NCBI RefSeq assembly: GCF_023516505.1
Contig: NZ_JAMGBB010000001.1
Coordinates: 310,001-374,000 of the forward strand
From: Sphingomonas brevis
GTDB taxonomy: Bacteria > Pseudomonadota > Alphaproteobacteria > Sphingomonadales > Sphingomonadaceae
Direction: 5' to 3'
DNA: 64,000 nt
In this document: positions 22,870-60,848 of the stretch, in pieces
Layout of the letters: each line of letters opens with the position of its first letter
Position numbering within the stretch: position 1 is the stretch's first letter
Notes under the pieces: generated by a model
The model's input: the letters and a program-made list of their open reading frames with translations, nothing else
Told to the model about the DNA's origin: nothing
The model's database searches: none
Position numbers and translations under genes: made by a program

Positions 22870-24930
22870 ATGCTCGACCGCCGGCAATTCATCCAGGCCG
22901 CCGCTGCAATGGGCGCCGCATTCGCCTGGGGCGGCCCGGCCCGCGCGTCGCGCGTCAAATGGACCGAGCGGCGCAATCTCTATCCCCACGGCGTGGCGTC
23001 GGGCGATCCCGATCCGCACAGCGTGATCCTGTGGACCCGCCGGCCGTATGAGGCGGGCAAGCGGCAAATGCTGACCGTTGAAGTGGCGGAGGATGCGGCG
23101 TTCCGACGGGTCGTGGCGCATGCGCCCGCGCCGGTCAGCGCCGCGTCCGACTGGACCGCCCGGGTGCTGGTCGGTGGCCTCAAGCCTTCGCACACCTATT
23201 GGTACCGTTTCACCGATGCCCAAGGGAATGGCAGCCGGGTCGGGCGGACGATTACCGCGCCGGCGGCGGACGATCCGCGGACCATCAACTTCGCCTTCGT
23301 AAGCTGCCAGGACATCAACGAAAGCAAGCTCAATGCCTACCGCCGAATGATCTTCGAAGACGAGCGGGCGCAGCCGGCAGACCAGATCGAATTCGTCCTG
23401 CACCTTGGCGATTTCATCTACGAGGTGGTCCAATATCCGGAGGAAGGGAAGCCCCGGTTCGACCGGAAGCTCTACGAGGTTGCACGGATTCCGGACTCGC
23501 TCAAAGTCCGTAACTATCATCTCCCGACGACGCTCGAGGGATACCGTGCGGTGTGGAAGGGCTTTCTCGCCGATCCCGACCTCCAGGATGCGCGGGCCCG
23601 CTGGCCGTTCATATGCACCTGGGACAATCACGAATTTTCTTGGCAGGGCTGGCAGAGCATCCTGAAAGCACCGTCGATTGAGCAGCCAGGGCAGACCATC
23701 AAGGTCGCGGCGAACCAGGCGTGGTTCGAAAATATTCCGGCGCGGGTGAAGGCGCCGAGCGGAACCTTTGACGAGTTCGGTTCCGTTGCCGTCAAGAACG
23801 TCAAGATCGACAAGTTCGGCGATGACGGCCTCGGTCTCGAGCCGAATAATATTGCCGCGATCAATAGCCTGATCATCTATCGTGCGCTGCGCTTCGGTCG
23901 CCATCTCGATCTGCTGCTCACCGACGAGCGCAGCTATCGCGGTCCGAACCCGTTCGAAGAGTCGGCGACCGATAAATTGGCTGACTGGGCCGATTACGGC
24001 ATGTTCCCCGACGACCTGTTGCAGGCGCTTGACGGGGGACGCGCCTTCAACGGCGGCAATCCGCCTGCGGAACTGGAATTCAACGGCGCCAAGGTCCCTA
24101 ACCCGAACAAGGACAAGCCGCCACAAACCATCCTTGGAGGGACTCAGAAAGCGTGGTTCAAGAACCGGCTGCGCACCTCGGGGGCGACCTGGAAGATTTG
24201 GGCCAGTTCGCAATGCACCCTGGAGCAGCGCGCCGATCCGGAGAACTTCCCCGAAGGGCTGACAAAACAGAAATGGCCGGCAGGAAGGTTCGCCAACGTG
24301 CAAGGCGGCGACTTCGGCAGCGCCTGGGTCGAGCGCAGCGAGATCTATGACCTGGTGCGTGACGCCAAGATAACCGGTCTGGCGATCGTTTCCGGTGACC
24401 TCCATAGTTTCTGGGCGGGTTACGCTTCTGCGCAATTGCCGCCCGGCAAGTTCGAACCGATCGGGCTGAGCTTCACCGGGGGATCTATATCGAGTGTGGG
24501 CGGCGCCGAAGCGCACGAGTATGTCATCAAGAAGGACGACAAATTCCGGCCGCTGTACCTTGCCGACCGGCCGGGCGCGGCGAAGCCCGAGCACACGTAC
24601 AACATGATGTTGAGGCACGGGGTCCGGTCCTGCTTCGAATATGCCAAATCCTTCGATCGGGCGAAGGCGCTGGCCCTGGCCAACCCGGATGTCGCGCCGC
24701 ACCTCGAGTTCGTCGATATCGGCGGGCATGGCTATGCCAAGGTGCGGCTCAGCAGTGAGGAGATGCGGACCGAATTCGTCTGCATCCCGCGCCCGGTGAC
24801 GAGGAGCGAGCGCCCTGACGGCGGACCGCTGCGCTACCGCGTGGCGCATACAGCCAAGCTGTGGAAACCAGGCGAAGCGCCGAAGCTAGTCGCCGAGGTA
24901 CTTGAAGGCGATCCGGGCCTTTCGATCTAG
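22870..24930 (+). CDS. phoD: Alkaline phosphatase D family protein
   Basis: 686 aa. A twin-arginine signal (DRRQFIQAAAAMG) directs Tat export. An N-terminal Ig-like domain (PHGVASGDPDPHSVILWTR) precedes the PhoD metallophosphatase core: SCQD, FVLHLGDFIYE, TWDNHEF and SGDLHSFWAG supply Fe/Ca ligands. It hydrolyses phosphate esters, including phosphodiesters, in the periplasm or outside the cell. AGGGGGAGG precedes the ATG. The last 30 bases of the gene recur at 25611, on the far side of the GIY-YIG/REP element. Confidence 0.92.
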   Translation: MLDRRQFIQAAAAMGAAFAWGGPARASRVKWTERRNLYPHGVASGDPDPHSVILWTRRPYEAGKRQMLTVEVAEDAAFRRVVAHAPAPVSAASDWTARVLVGGLKPSHTYWYRFTDAQGNGSRVGRTITAPAADDPRTINFAFVSCQDINESKLNAYRRMIFEDERAQPADQIEFVLHLGDFIYEVVQYPEEGKPRFDRKLYEVARIPDSLKVRNYHLPTTLEGYRAVWKGFLADPDLQDARARWPFICTWDNHEFSWQGWQSILKAPSIEQPGQTIKVAANQAWFENIPARVKAPSGTFDEFGSVAVKNVKIDKFGDDGLGLEPNNIAAINSLIIYRALRFGRHLDLLLTDERSYRGPNPFEESATDKLADWADYGMFPDDLLQALDGGRAFNGGNPPAELEFNGAKVPNPNKDKPPQTILGGTQKAWFKNRLRTSGATWKIWASSQCTLEQRADPENFPEGLTKQKWPAGRFANVQGGDFGSAWVERSEIYDLVRDAKITGLAIVSGDLHSFWAGYASAQLPPGKFEPIGLSFTGGSISSVGGAEAHEYVIKKDDKFRPLYLADRPGAAKPEHTYNMMLRHGVRSCFEYAKSFDRAKALALANPDVAPHLEFVDIGGHGYAKVRLSSEEMRTEFVCIPRPVTRSERPDGGPLRYRVAHTAKLWKPGEAPKLVAEVLEGDPGLSI

Positions 24931-24937: not shown

Positions 24938-25047
24938 CCGCCGTCATCGCTTCAAGGCAGAATGACCACGGCTAGCCCGATGTACAGGCGTCACCCCGGC
25001 CTTGATGACCGGCATGCGGCACTGTCTGGGGGACAGTGCCGGTCCGA

Positions 25048-25374
25048 TCATGGGTCCGCCTGTCTTCCTAGCGGCAATGGATCGAAGCCAAGATCCTCGG
25101 CAAGATCGCGCCAGCCGGGGTTGCCTGCGTTGACGAAATCATACTTCCACTGCCGCCGCCATCGCTTGATCTGCTTCTCTCGCAGGATGGCGGATTCCAT
25201 CGTTTCATGGACCTCGAACCAGACCAATCTTTTGATCCCGTATCGCGCCGTGAAACCCTTCGTCGCTTCGGTACGATGCTGCCAGATGCGACCGATCAGA
25301 TCGCTTGTGACGCCGGTATAGAAGGTGCTGTGGGAGGCGCGGGCTAAGAGATAAACACAAGGCTGACGTTCCAT
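25048..25374 (-). CDS. GIY-YIG nuclease family protein (copy A)
   Basis: 108 aa. The core is VYLLARASHSTFYTGVTSDLIGRIWQH: the first motif reads VYLL.. and the second FYTGVT, with catalytic Tyr, the Arg of GRIWQHR and Glu in ESAILREKQIKRW. It is a stand-alone GIY-YIG domain, like the UPF0213/YhbQ type, expected to nick or cleave DNA. It differs at only about ten residues from copy B at 58462, mostly near the C-terminus, where it ends GFDPLPLGRQADP. It is embedded in REP repeats. Confidence 0.88.
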   Translation of the reverse strand: MERQPCVYLLARASHSTFYTGVTSDLIGRIWQHRTEATKGFTARYGIKRLVWFEVHETMESAILREKQIKRWRRQWKYDFVNAGNPGWRDLAEDLGFDPLPLGRQADP

Positions 25375-25400
25375 TGCCCAGAGTTCAAAAGGCAGGCAGA

Positions 25401-25419
25401 CCCCGGGTCAAGCCCGGGG
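25401..25419. repeat. REP palindrome
   Basis: CCCCGGGTCAAGCCCGGGG, an 8-bp arm palindrome. The matching sequence occurs at 58419-58437 in copy B. Confidence 0.85.
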
Positions 25420-25477
25420 TGACGTTCGATTAATCCAATGACCGCAATGGGTCGAAAGCGGCCACACCTCATTCGTC

Positions 25478-25498
25478 ATCCCGGACTTGATCCGGGAT
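25478..25498. repeat. REP palindrome
   Basis: ATCCCGGACTTGATCCGGGA plus T; arms ATCCCGGA and TCCGGGAT. The same palindrome occurs near 58338-58359. Confidence 0.85.
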
Positions 25499-25610
25499 CC
25501 GCCTTTTCATTTGCGCCCAGAAAGGCAGGCAGACCATGACTGGACGGCACCGTCCCCCAGACGGTGCCGCATGCCGGTCATCAAGCCCGGGGTGACGCTA
25601 GGTACAACTG

Positions 25611-25647
25611 CTTGAGGGCGATCCGGGCCTTTCTATCTAGGCATTGG
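25611..25647 (+). repeat. Right copy of ~37-bp direct repeat
   Basis: Repeats the 3' end of phoD (24901-24937) with four mismatches, including GAGGG for GAAGG and TTCTATC for TTCGATC. It marks the right border of the inserted unit. Confidence 0.75.
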
Positions 25648-49192: not shown

Positions 49193-49196
49193 CCCC

Positions 49197-49277
49197 GTCA
49201 TGCCGGATTTAATCCGGCATCCGCCTGTTCTTCGGCTTCATCAGATAAGGCAGACCCCGGCTCGGGGGCCGGGGTGA
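49197..49277. repeat. REP palindromes between convergent genes
   Basis: ATGCCGGATTTAATCCGGCAT lies at ~49201-49221. A second palindrome with arms GACCCCGGC and GCCGGGGTG lies at ~49254-49276. Both match the REP style seen at 25 and 58 kb and may serve as bidirectional terminators. The second overlaps the 3' end of the neighbouring flavoprotein gene. Confidence 0.8.
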
Positions 49278-50467
49278 CGATCTCCGCGGCTCAAGGCTTC
49301 CGCCGCAGCATGTGCGCTCGCCCAGGCCCATTGGAAATTATAGCCGCCGAGCCAGCCGGTGACGTCAACCGCTTCGCCGATCGCGAACAGGCCGGGGACG
49401 CGGTTGGATTGCATGGTCTGGGACGACAGTTCGGCGGTGCTGATCCCGCCGATGGTGACTTCGGCCTTGGCGAACCCCTCGCTGCCGTTGGGCGTGAACG
49501 ACCAGGCGGCTATCCGGCGCTCGGCCTCGTCGAGTGCTCGGTCGGTGAGGTTGGCGAGTTCCCCGGCTAGTCCGAGTTGATCGGCCAGGGTTTCCGCCAG
49601 ACGGTCGGGGAGGTGCCGGGCGAGCAAGCGGCGGAGGGTGGTGCGCGGTTCGTCGCGCTTGGCCTGCCGCAGCCAGCCGCGGGGCAGGTCGGGCAGGAAA
49701 TCGATGAAGACCGGCTGGCCAGGGCGCCAGTAGGAGCTGGCCTGGAGGATAGCCGGGCCGGACAGGCCGCGATGGGTGAACAGGGCAGCTTCTCGAAATG
49801 TGCCTTTGCCCGCGCTGGCGACGACATCGGCAGAGACGCCGGAGAGCGTCTTGAACAGTGCCTGGTCGCCCGACAGGGTCAGCGGCACCAGCGCCGGGCG
49901 CGGCTCGACGATCTTCAGGCCGAAGCGGCGGGCGACGTCGTAGGCGAAGCCGGTCGCGCCAAGCTTGGGTATCGACAGGCCCCCGCTGGCCAGCACCAGC
50001 GCCGGAGCGCGCGCGGTCGTCGTGCCGATCGTGACGTCGAAGGCGCCGTCACGATGCTCGATGGTTGCCGGCTGGCCGAAAGCAGTGTCGACCGCGCCCG
50101 CGGCGCATTCGTCGAGCAGCATGGCGACGATCTGCCGTGCCGAGCCGTCGCAGAATAATTGGCCGAGGGTTTTCTCGTGCCAGGCGATACGGTGGCGTTC
50201 GACCAGGGCGAGGAAATCCGCCGGCGTGAAGCGGCCGAGCGCCGACTTGGCGAAGTGCGGGTTGGCGGAGAGGAAATTATCGGCGGTGGCGCCTATATTG
50301 GTGAAATTGCAGCGGCCCCCGCCCGAGATCAGTATCTTGCGGCCCGGTTCGCTCGAGTGATCGACCAGCAGGACGCGACGGCCGCGCTGTCCGGCGAGCG
50401 CGGCGCAAAACATGCCCGCCGCCCCCGCCCCGATGACGATCGAGTCGAAGGTGCGTGGCGCGGTCAA
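49241..50467 (-). CDS. NAD(P)/FAD-dependent oxidoreductase, YhiN/HI0933 family
   Basis: 408 aa. The N-terminal IVIGAGAAGMFCAALAGQRGRRVLLVDHSSEPGRKILISGGGRCNFTN is the HI0933/YhiN signature; further on are GLSIPKLGATGFAYDVA and GLFAIGEAVDVTGWLGGYNFQWAWASAHAA. The substrate is unknown. The last ~12 residues (RHPGPRAGVCLI) are encoded by a REP palindrome, so the natural C-terminus was replaced or extended. Confidence 0.9.
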   Translation of the reverse strand: MTAPRTFDSIVIGAGAAGMFCAALAGQRGRRVLLVDHSSEPGRKILISGGGRCNFTNIGATADNFLSANPHFAKSALGRFTPADFLALVERHRIAWHEKTLGQLFCDGSARQIVAMLLDECAAGAVDTAFGQPATIEHRDGAFDVTIGTTTARAPALVLASGGLSIPKLGATGFAYDVARRFGLKIVEPRPALVPLTLSGDQALFKTLSGVSADVVASAGKGTFREAALFTHRGLSGPAILQASSYWRPGQPVFIDFLPDLPRGWLRQAKRDEPRTTLRRLLARHLPDRLAETLADQLGLAGELANLTDRALDEAERRIAAWSFTPNGSEGFAKAEVTIGGISTAELSSQTMQSNRVPGLFAIGEAVDVTGWLGGYNFQWAWASAHAAAEALSRGDRHPGPRAGVCLI

Positions 50468-58239: not shown

Positions 58240-58447
58240 GACCGCTTTCGACCCATTGCGGTCATTGGATTAATCGAGCGTCACCCCGGGCTTCACCCGG
58301 GGTCTGCCTGCCTTTTTGGGCGCAAATGAAAAGGCGGATCCCGGATCAAGTCCGGGATGACGAATGAGGTGAGACCGCTTTCGACCCATTGCGGTCATTG
58401 GACTAATCGAACGTCACCCCGGGCTTGACCCGGGGTCTGCTTGCCTT
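58240..58447 (+). repeat. 75-bp direct repeats within element copy B
   Basis: GACCGCTTTCGACCCATTGC.. through the CCCCGGG palindrome occurs at 58240-58314 and 58373-58447, 133 bp apart, with few differences (GATT/GACT, GAGC/GAAC, CTTCA/CTTGA). Confidence 0.85.
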
Positions 58448-58461
58448 TTGAACTCTGGGCA

Positions 58462-58776
58462 ATGGAACGTCAGCCTTGTGTTTATCTCTTAGCCCGCGCC
58501 TCCCACAGCACCTTCTATACCGGCGTCACAAGCGATCTGATCGGCCGCATCTGGCAGCATCGTACCGAAGCGACGAAGGGTTTCACGGCGCGATACGGGA
58601 TCAAAAGATTGGTCTGGTTCGAGGTCCATAAAACGATGGAATCCGCCATCCTGCGAGAAAAGCAGATCAAGCGCTGGCGGCGGCAATGGAAGTATGATCT
58701 CGTCAATGCGGACAATCCTACCTGGCGCGATCTTGCCGAAGACTTTGGATTTGAGCCGTTGGGGCTAGAAGGATAG
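58462..58776 (+). CDS. GIY-YIG nuclease family protein (copy B)
   Basis: 104 aa. Same core as copy A: VYLLARASHSTFYTGVTSDL, GRIWQHRTEATKGF, FEVHKTMESAILREKQIKRW with catalytic Tyr, Arg and Glu present. It differs from copy A mainly after residue 80 (DNPTWRDLAEDFGFEPLGLEG). ATG 58462 gives the same start as copy A. The selective conservation of the protein frame suggests it is functional. Confidence 0.88.
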   Translation: MERQPCVYLLARASHSTFYTGVTSDLIGRIWQHRTEATKGFTARYGIKRLVWFEVHKTMESAILREKQIKRWRRQWKYDLVNADNPTWRDLAEDFGFEPLGLEG

Positions 58777-58862
58777 GCGGACCCATGATCGGACCGGCAC
58801 TGTCCCCCAGACAGTGCCGCATGCCGATCATCAAGGCCGGGGTGACGGTCACTTGCCCTGCC

Positions 58863-60848
58863 TCAAGCGTCGATTTCATCCTCGCCCAGGGCCGCCGCGC
58901 GGCTCTGAATGAAGTTGAAGCGGTGCTCGGGGTTCTTGCCCATCAGCTGGTCGACCAGTTCGCGGACCGGCTGGCGGTCCTGATATTCGGCCGGCAGCGT
59001 GATGCGGATCAGCGAGCGGGACGCCGGATCCATGGTTGTTTCCTTAAGCTGATTGGGGTTCATTTCCCCAAGTCCCTTGAACCGCGACACCTCGACCTTC
59101 TTGCCCTTGAACTCGGTCCGCTCCAGTTCGGCCCGGTGGGCGTCGTCGCGGGCATAGGCGGATTTGGAGCCTGAAGTCAGGCGATAGAGCGGCGGCTGTG
59201 CGAGGAACAGATGGCCGCGTCGCACCAGTTCCGGCATCTCCTGGAAAAAGAAGGTCATCAGCAGCGTCGCGATATGCGCGCCGTCGACATCGGCGTCGGT
59301 CATGATGATGACCCGTTCGTAGCGCAGCGCTTCCTCGGCCCATTTGTCGCGTGTGCCGCAGCCCAGTGCCTGCTGAAGGTCGGCGATTTCCTGGTTGGCG
59401 CGGATCTTGTCGGCGGTGGCGCTGGCGACATTCAATATCTTGCCGCGGATCGGCAGGATCGCCTGGGTCTTGCGGTCGCGGGCCTGTTTCGCGCTTCCTC
59501 CCGCGCTGTCGCCTTCGACGATGAACAGTTCGGTCCCTTCCGCATCGTCATTGGCGCAATCGGTGAGCTTGCCGGGCAGGCGGAGCTTGCGAGCGCTGGT
59601 CGCGGTCTTGCGCTTCACCTCGCGCTCGGCGCGGCGCTTCAACCGCTCGTCCATCCGTTCGAGGATCGCACCGAGCAGCGCGCGGCCGCGGTCCATATTG
59701 TCGGCCAGATAATGGTCGAAATGGTCGCGGACGGCCGCCTCGACGAAGCGCGCCGCCTCCAGACTGGTTAGCCGGTCCTTGGTCTGGCTCTGGAAATGGG
59801 GGTTGCGGATGAACACGCTCAGCATCAGCTCGACGCCGTTCAGCACGTCGTCGGGGATGATATCCTTGGCCTTCTTCTGGCCGATCAGGTCGGCGAAGGC
59901 GCGCACCCCCTTGGTCAGCGCGGCGCGCAGGCCTGCCTCATGGGTGCCGCCGTCGGGCGTGGGAATCGTATTGCAATAATAGCTTTCGTTCGAACCCTCG
60001 CTCCACACCGGCCAGGCCACCGCCCATTCGGCCGAGCCCTGGCCGTCGGGGAAGTCCTGTCGCCCGGCGAAGGGTGGCGCGGTCACGCATTCGCGGCCGG
60101 CAAGCTGCTCGTTCAGGTGATCGGCGAGGCCGCCGGGGAACTGGAATACGGCCTGCTCAGGCACATCTGCCGAGGCCAGCGTCGGATCGCAGCGCCAGCG
60201 AATCTCGACGCCTGCAAAGAGATAAGCCTTGGACCGGGCGAGCTTGTAGAGACGGGCCGGTTCGAACCGGGCGTCACTGCCGAAAATCTCCGGGTCGGGG
60301 GTGAAGGTGACGGTGGTGCCGCGGCGGTTGGGCGCGGCGCCGATTTCCTCCAGCGGCGAGGTGGCGACTCCCCTGGCGAACGCCTGGCGATAGAGCTTCT
60401 TGTCCTTTGCGACCTCGATGATCGTCTCGGTCGACAAAGCGTTGACGACGCTGACGCCGACGCCATGGAGGCCGCCCGAGGTTGAATAGGCCTTGCCTTC
60501 GAACTTGCCGCCGGAATGGAGCGTGGTGAGGATCACCTCCAGCGCCGACTTGCCCGGGAACTTGGGATGCGGATCGACCGGAATGCCGCGGCCATTGTCG
60601 GCGACGGTCAGCCGGTTGCCCGGCTCCAGCGTGACCTCGATCCGGCTGGCGTGGCCAGCCACGGCCTCGTCCATCGAGTTATCGATGACCTCGGCGGCGA
60701 GGTGGTGGAGCGCGCGAGCATCGGTCCCGCCGATATACATGCCGGGGCGGCGCCGAACCGGCTCGAGGCCTTCGAGGACCTCGATCGCGGAAGCGTCGTA
60801 ACTGTCGGCGGCTTGAGTGGCGGAACCGGAAGCGAAAAGATCGGACAT
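58863..60848 (-). CDS. parE: DNA topoisomerase IV subunit B
   Basis: 661 aa. GHKL ATPase motifs (VIDNSMDEA, DNGRGIPV, GGLHGVGVSVVNAL) and the TOPRIM acidic residues (EGDSAGGSAKQ, IMTDADVDGAH) are present, with IRGKILNV and LMGKNPEHRFNFIQ at the C-terminus. The TOPRIM and length fit ParE rather than GyrB, which is longer. With ParC it separates replicated chromosomes. Confidence 0.96.
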   Translation of the reverse strand: MSDLFASGSATQAADSYDASAIEVLEGLEPVRRRPGMYIGGTDARALHHLAAEVIDNSMDEAVAGHASRIEVTLEPGNRLTVADNGRGIPVDPHPKFPGKSALEVILTTLHSGGKFEGKAYSTSGGLHGVGVSVVNALSTETIIEVAKDKKLYRQAFARGVATSPLEEIGAAPNRRGTTVTFTPDPEIFGSDARFEPARLYKLARSKAYLFAGVEIRWRCDPTLASADVPEQAVFQFPGGLADHLNEQLAGRECVTAPPFAGRQDFPDGQGSAEWAVAWPVWSEGSNESYYCNTIPTPDGGTHEAGLRAALTKGVRAFADLIGQKKAKDIIPDDVLNGVELMLSVFIRNPHFQSQTKDRLTSLEAARFVEAAVRDHFDHYLADNMDRGRALLGAILERMDERLKRRAEREVKRKTATSARKLRLPGKLTDCANDDAEGTELFIVEGDSAGGSAKQARDRKTQAILPIRGKILNVASATADKIRANQEIADLQQALGCGTRDKWAEEALRYERVIIMTDADVDGAHIATLLMTFFFQEMPELVRRGHLFLAQPPLYRLTSGSKSAYARDDAHRAELERTEFKGKKVEVSRFKGLGEMNPNQLKETTMDPASRSLIRITLPAEYQDRQPVRELVDQLMGKNPEHRFNFIQSRAAALGEDEIDA

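Follow-up and report, generated by a model that had tools for sequence, protein, structure and literature searches.

Two copies of a small unit, each comprising one GIY-YIG nuclease gene flanked by outward-facing, CGTC-tagged REP palindromes, lie 33 kb apart in the window (the whole 64-kb stretch of DNA analyzed, corresponding to C1:310001-374000 of the 2.59-Mb host genome, G000). Judging from comparisons of such units across genomes, the nuclease is probably specific for one class of REP and drives its spread, and the unit probably represents an autonomous REP-type mobile element that is analogous but unrelated to RAYTs. For CGTC REPs, which occur widely in alphaproteobacteria, the survey by Di Nocera et al. 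(2013; PMC3733652) named no enzyme, stating that they "apparently lack a dedicated transposase"; a one-gene candidate for this role is now at hand.

Organization of the units in the host genome

Each copy in the window contained one nuclease gene between its REPs (Table 1), in agreement with the initial annotation, which had described a unit holding only a GIY-YIG gene. The recurrence of about 545 nearly identical bp at a distance of 33 kb, claimed from the same first inspection, was borne out by a match of 547 bp with 94% identity, copy 2 being on the opposite strand. The homology between the copies begins at the CGTC tag (24989), and their genes differ by 13 synonymous and 9 non-synonymous codons. 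A REP pair (25474-25597) adjoins the element proper of copy 1, and the gene adjoining copy 2 (58863-60848) is presumably parE-like.

Table 1. Positions of nuclease genes and REP elements in the 64-kb window.
Feature	Position	Strand	Remark
GIY-YIG nuclease gene, copy 1, 108 aa	25048-25374	-	Pfam PF01541, E 7.7e-13
REP with extra hairpin, 3' side of the gene, CGTC tag outward (left 72-bp arm)	24989-25057	+	Start of inter-copy homology
Class-B CGTC REP, 5' side of the gene, tag outward; the element's own right REP	25400-25424	-	
Inner REP of the adjoining REP pair	25474-25498	+	
Outer long-hairpin REP of the adjoining pair (right 72-bp arm)	25532-25597	-	Ordinary REP in its place beside copy 2
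REP pair without a gene, REPIN-like, tags outward	49196-49279	.	
Ordinary REP, outer end beside copy 2	58279-58303	+	
Copy 2 of the unit, 547 bp	58301-58847	-	94% identical to 24989-25535
Inner REP of the pair beside copy 2	58338-58362	-	
Class-B REP, 5' side of the copy 2 gene	58412-58436	+	
GIY-YIG nuclease gene, copy 2, 104 aa	58462-58776	+	

The arms of copy 1 formed inverted repeats with 86% identity across about 89 bp. These had been annotated as terminal inverted repeats of about 72 bp built like REPs, and the 72-bp arms are indeed REPs with an extra hairpin, but both arms were present in copy 1 only and do not define the ends of the unit. Copy 2 carried a long arm at one end, whereas its other end was an ordinary REP, indicating that the long arms are variable. 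Long terminal inverted repeats were thus discarded as defining ends, given that copy 2 has no such pair and that relatives mostly carry plain REPs. Gene-less long-hairpin REPs were found at six more places in the host genome (L004, L005, L007, L010, L015, and L019). The hairpin around GGCACTGTCTGGGGGACAGTGCC (window 24989-25057; L019 1501-1546) was present in REPs of two different classes and looks like a separate module.

The window contained nine REP-like palindromes (two of them weak, and long-hairpin REPs excluded), compared with a mean of 1.2 and a maximum of 4 in 20 random windows having the same base transitions, from which we conclude that the window REPs did not arise by chance. An imperfect direct repeat of 30 bp (93%; window 24901-24930 and 25611-25640) borders copy 1 on both sides; it corresponds to the end of the upstream 686-aa ORF and may be a target duplication or a remnant. 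A third small GIY-YIG gene of the host genome (L023, at 683835) was broken and located between class-D-like palindromes.

Recurrence of the layout and pairing of nuclease with REP class

A protein search identified relatives of the nuclease in 106/149 genomes of Sphingomonadaceae. The family set examined for flanking REPs comprised 91 genes, namely two from the host genome, the 29 best other matches, and 60 hand-picked genes, mostly from multi-copy genomes. Outward CGTC REPs were located upstream of 70, downstream of 71, on both sides of 63, and on either side of 78 of the 91 genes, and REP density fell from 7.2 per kb in the nearest 150 bp to 0.39 per kb beyond 500 bp. The REP detector found no REP near the gene at 13/91 loci, several of which had other inverted palindromes; GIY-YIG genes without REP ends, which the initial annotation had named as evidence against the proposed system, were therefore only a minority within the nuclease clade. 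An inverted-repeat score of at least 36 was obtained for 57/91 genes (two unscorable) and for 0/515 shifted windows, this cut-off having been fixed after the first controls (315 windows, maximum 35).

The same layout was found in two other sets. The best 80 of at least 558 confirmed loci, selected by protein only from named genomes with class-A nucleases, all had at least one cognate REP (80/80), and 71/80 had REPs on both sides. The upstream REP was most often located 31 bp from the start, and the downstream REP most often overlapped the stop region by 7 bp; these REPs were of class-A type, with the core GAACTTGTTTC or a near variant and compensating outer stem pairs. The score was at least 36 for 45/80 of these loci versus 0/612 control windows. 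Outside the family, 42 loci were analyzed (22 best matches and 20 hand-picked for spread), with a REP on either side in 28, REPs on both sides in 19, and a score of at least 36 in 23, versus 0/159 control windows. Named loci outside the family set included a unit between sufB and sufC of Azospirillum lipoferum and another on Novosphingobium aromaticivorans pNL2. In Neisseria gonorrhoeae, the nuclease gene was found among dRS3-like REPs that clustered around the gene without the simple outward layout.

Pooling of the three sets gave a score of at least 36 for 125/213 genes and for 0/1286 shifted windows. These counts bear directly on the possibility that common intergenic repeats or terminators merely happen to flank the gene by chance or hitch-hiking, a possibility compatible with the location of REPs mainly downstream of genes, as described in the consulted parts of PMC3733652. 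Given the absence of equal scores in the shifted windows, the inverted orientation and class match of the two REPs, and the co-variation of nuclease and REP class, we find a coincidental association hardly credible.

To describe the pairing, we assigned REPs to eight classes by their hairpin-core pattern after inspection; the class definitions and both cut-offs (the score used above and the 160 bits used below) were chosen once the data had been seen. The left and right REPs belonged to the same class in 66/74 genes with both REPs classed, compared with a mean of 14.5 and a maximum of 27 under random pairing. Paralogues within one genome differed in REP class (C, A, E, B, and D in G104; F, A, C, and D in G087). 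On the nuclease tree, in which columns are few and many forks are open, REP class required 26 changes, versus 56.1 with shuffled labels. The nearest relative in another genus shared the REP class in 66/82 cases, whereas shuffling within genomes gave a mean of 29.0 and a maximum of 52 (n=2000). Within the 19 multi-class genomes, the nearest other-genus relative agreed in 44/56 cases versus a mean of 15.3 after shuffling (maximum 31). Because the within-genome shuffles stayed below the observed values, host ancestry alone is insufficient to explain the co-variation of class; the shuffle strips host effects from this co-variation only, and genomes share ancestry in the other comparisons. Among the related bacteria compared, each nuclease version goes with its own REP version, suggesting that the nuclease may be the missing engine behind the spread of a large class of bacterial repeats.

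We also compared REP abundance with nuclease class by counting the exact class-A core in 149 genomes, class-A nucleases being defined by the A2 model at 160 bits or above. The core was present in 31/32 genomes with a class-A nuclease (median 13), in 18/43 genomes with another GIY-YIG nuclease (median 0), and in 19/74 genomes with none at E 1e-30 (median 0), with Mann-Whitney values, uncorrected for ancestry, of 1e-7 and 1e-14 for the comparisons with the second and third groups, respectively. The sole class-A-nuclease genome without the exact core (G107) had a variant core. More than two class-A cores occurred in 23/117 genomes without a class-A nuclease at the cut-off, which counts against a simple model.

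Class-D cores showed no significant link to the class-A nuclease (p 0.05), with more than two cores in 11/32 versus 23/117 genomes. Six genomes with an observed class-D nuclease had 4-54 copies of the class-D core (p 2.7e-4 versus 40 others); among these 40 comparison genomes, whose nucleases were only partly read, G091 had 53 cores and G027 had 27. Two congeners illustrate the correspondence: G129, with a class-A nuclease, had 75 A and 5 D cores, and G053, in which one nuclease was found, of class D, had 0 A and 54 D cores. Gene-less REPs were often paired, with 30/32 close neighbors facing outward among 121 places from the matches listed. In G129, 16/20 fetched sites conformed to a paired arrangement of 83-85 bp, its spacer mostly being CCAT...ATGG, and one such pair folded far better than shuffled sequence (z -9.0).

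Positions of units in related genomes

Fixed positions in all relatives had been named beforehand as evidence against the proposed system; unit positions were not fixed, and units were absent at orthologous sites of relatives. One genome (G071) carried the class-B unit at seven places (L195-L200 and L202). The reading frame was disrupted in 3/7 of these units, two of them among three sites compared with a congener. At these three sites, the one congener compared had neither the unit nor a class-B REP; two flanks could be located at one site and a single flank at each of the other two. For seven of the 20 sites fetched from G129, orthologous stretches of other species were compared, and the class-A pair was found in 0/19 of them; one of these sites, with a class-A pair in G129, had a class-D pair in G053. 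The sufB-sufC interval of three Azospirillum relatives, with flanks 95.6-96.6% identical, was without the unit. The copy 2 site of the window was without the unit in 24/24 congeneric loci read; for the copy 1 site, 0/5 congeneric loci containing the upstream gene had a GIY-YIG gene within 1.5 kb. One genome had a different GIY-YIG gene and a class-C REP in the intergenic region that holds copy 2 in the window, near the parE-like gene (L133, G181).

Among the eleven best-matching Sphingobium plasmid records, a class-B unit was located beside fnrL in seven and absent in four (three and four of which were aligned, respectively). At this site, 2/4 unit-less plasmids had a single doubly tagged REP, one perfect and one with mismatches, which resembles a fusion of the outer halves of the two ends or, alternatively, an uncut target. 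Doubly tagged REPs were rare, accounting for 9/604 strand-wise REP records among the loci read, and these nine came from five loci.

These sites also bear on the possibility that the nuclease gene is a homing parasite, which would enter existing REP pairs through cutting and repair copying while the REPs are moved by something else. Homing endonucleases are found among GIY-YIG enzymes; the gene often occupied the position of the REP-pair spacer, and in the two Sphingobium plasmids the joined REP may represent the target before cutting. We nevertheless regard this possibility as unlikely, considering that the G071 congener was without a class-B REP at all three sites (both flanks being found at only one), that REP number tracked nuclease class, and that in G129 and Azospirillum lipoferum the gene sat between two complete REP pairs and not within one.

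The extent of the moved stretch was considered from the flanks. No clear target-site duplication was seen at the sites aligned, where the flanks were too diverged. Similarity between same-genome copies in G111 and G071 continued some 30-95 bp past the REPs, and the moved unit may therefore exceed the REP-to-REP span. A GCGGAC/TTGCGGAC sequence recurred some tens of bases beyond the REPs in several units of classes B and D (L195-L205, L089-L091, and L417). This motif was found in 23/382 near windows versus 35/2421 far windows and is a possible target or part of the unit.

The nuclease, a candidate mechanism, and known systems

The residues Y8, Y19, R29, E66, and N85, which we take to be catalytic, were invariant across 25 aligned relatives. 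All 25 matched PF01541, and the sole other Pfam family was T5orf172, in two proteins; neither a Y1 HUH (IS200/IS605-like) or other transposase domain nor an extra DNA-binding domain (NUMOD and the like) was matched in Pfam among these 25 proteins. Residues 71 and 73 in window-protein numbering (five and seven past Glu66) best separated the REP classes and, in combination with the class pairing, resemble a specificity code. The predicted fold was confident (pLDDT 88), and its best Foldseek match was 1zg2 (UPF0213, E 8e-4), with weaker matches to 1ywl, the UvrC N-domain, and Slx1 (E 0.08 and 0.10 for UvrC and Slx1, respectively). UvrC and Slx1 domains act on damaged or branched DNA, and Slx1-type enzymes cut branched DNA. 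Published accounts of At-HIGLE and ANKLE1, in the parts consulted, agree with cutting of branched DNA.

The weaker fold matches, together with the long hairpin into which a REP pair folds, could fit a host maintenance function, in which the nuclease trims REP hairpins or cruciforms, the adjacent REPs form a control loop, and mobility is incidental. The patchy presence of the nuclease across genomes, the several classes per genome, the similar copies within one genome, and the empty sites instead point to a selfish element, making such a function very unlikely.

The layout, its recurrence, the left-right class match, the co-variation, the tracking of nuclease class by REP abundance, and the absence at orthologous sites are shown by the sequences. 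On the tests of recurrence, class match, co-variation, abundance, and missing units, the GIY-YIG nuclease occupies the place that RAYTs hold elsewhere, as first proposed. The same tests agree with REP mobilization by the nuclease, although the mobilizing activity itself is something that we infer.

Beyond the match of REP class to nuclease class, we likewise infer every step of the following scheme. The single-domain GIY-YIG nuclease would recognize the hairpin of its own CGTC-REP class and cut at or in it, with the two outward-facing REPs delimiting the moved stretch and the gene-less REP pairs (83-85 bp in G129) acting as non-autonomous, REPIN-like dependants. The substrate could be a REP or REP pair that folds out of single-strand DNA at the replication fork, where a cut at the tags or the hairpin center, presumably by hydrolysis in line with other GIY-YIG enzymes, would release or break the unit. 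The unit would then be copied to a new place by repair or template switching, with host replication or repair, and not transposase-like strand transfer, completing the movement.

GIY-YIG enzymes act by hydrolysis and form no covalent intermediate, and their chemistry, which does not join DNA, does not account for the joining step of this scheme. This chemistry would suit another enzyme acting in trans, such as a RAYT or an IS transposase, which would move the REPs and the cassette with the nuclease as a passenger or regulator. Two observations make such an enzyme a distinctly improbable mover: REPs co-varied with the nuclease class by class, and Di Nocera et al. (2013; PMC3733652), in the parts consulted, examined CGTC REPs for associated transposases, tyrosine transposases included, and found only a few, fortuitous cases. 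A class-specific nuclease continues to be the reading that we prefer.

The scheme may extend to other palindromes. The REP detector found a CGTC REP at 0/22 more distant GIY-YIG paralogues (including L213 and L214), yet 7/22 scored at least 36 for inverted flanks, in a group without shifted controls, and several had other dispersed palindromes. These paralogues were dropped as a clean negative control, not being repeat-free, and the idea was widened to other palindromes for the same reason. As a tentative proposal, to which we give slightly less than even credence, single-domain GIY-YIG nucleases would form a second, non-homologous counterpart of RAYTs, each clade owning and spreading one palindrome family. 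Structure-specific cutting followed by host repair would jointly explain the CGTC REP superfamily (dRS3 of Neisseria included) and further common dispersed palindromes, among them the CGTCATTGCGAGC..GCAATCC and GTTCGTCCTGAGCcTGTCGAAGGAC repeats.

Several distant loci had repeats of their own. In part of a second, distant GIY-YIG clade (L375, L213, L383, L387, L392, and L393), other inverted dispersed palindromes, e.g., GTTCGTCCTGAGCCTGTCGAAGGAC, were located 0-67 bp from the gene. The arms were distant at L389, one of the seven score-passing genes. A CGTCATTGCGAGC...GCAATCCAG repeat flanked a separate nuclease clade (L066, L085, L097, L104, L108, L113, and L357), in four aligned members of which KxGSRxxK replaces KxWxRxWK. 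On a Planktothrix plasmid (L418 1486-1770), a GIY-YIG gene with TGTCATTCTGAGTGAAACGAAGAATC repeats on both sides had drmA of DISARM as one neighbor and a gene for a type IIL restriction enzyme as the other.

With respect to known systems, the REPs of the window and its relatives conform to the CGTC REP superfamily, defined in PMC3733652, as far as consulted, by a CGTC tag, a stem of 8-9, a loop of 4-5, a CCA tail, and mostly dimeric arrangement, and including dRS3 of Neisseriae and RPE-4/6 of Rickettsia conorii. They differ in that a nuclease is proposed here, whereas the consulted parts of that survey contain no dedicated enzyme. No report linking GIY-YIG proteins to REPs was found in the literature searched, which comprised sources other than bioRxiv preprints and most subscription papers and was seen in part.

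As in RAYT/TnpA-REP systems (REPtrons) and REPINs, one small enzyme gene has inverted REPs on its two sides, gene-less pairs are dispersed elsewhere, and several classes may coexist in a genome. The enzyme is, however, a GIY-YIG nuclease instead of a Y1 HUH transposase, and the tag is CGTC instead of GTAG, the flanking REPs found by the CGTC-REP detector carrying CGTC, TGTC, or AGTC tags. On account of both differences, we do not consider this a RAYT system. MITEs and insertion sequences likewise have gene-less derivatives with inverted ends, but here no transposase domain was matched among the 25 proteins, and no clear target-site duplication was seen between the diverged flanks at the sites aligned.

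The nuclease belongs to the GIY-YIG superfamily, having the domain with the conserved Y, Y, R, E, and N. It shares the catalytic domain and a mobile context with the homing endonucleases I-TevI and I-BmoI, but the units are without an extra DNA-binding module in Pfam, and their ends are cognate palindromes; no intron or intein location was found among the window copies and six annotated plasmid loci, all of which were intergenic. It shares its fold with the GIY-YIG domains of UPF0213/YhbQ (best match 1zg2), UvrC, and Slx1, for which we know of no link to palindromic repeats. The system fails the tested defining features of RAYTs and homing endonucleases yet works, on this evidence, like a RAYT. 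Given the pairing of nuclease class with REP class, one protein and one oligonucleotide would suffice to test the question and, if the proposal is true, a mobile element would be run by a plain nuclease, on a principle unlike RAYT strand transfer.
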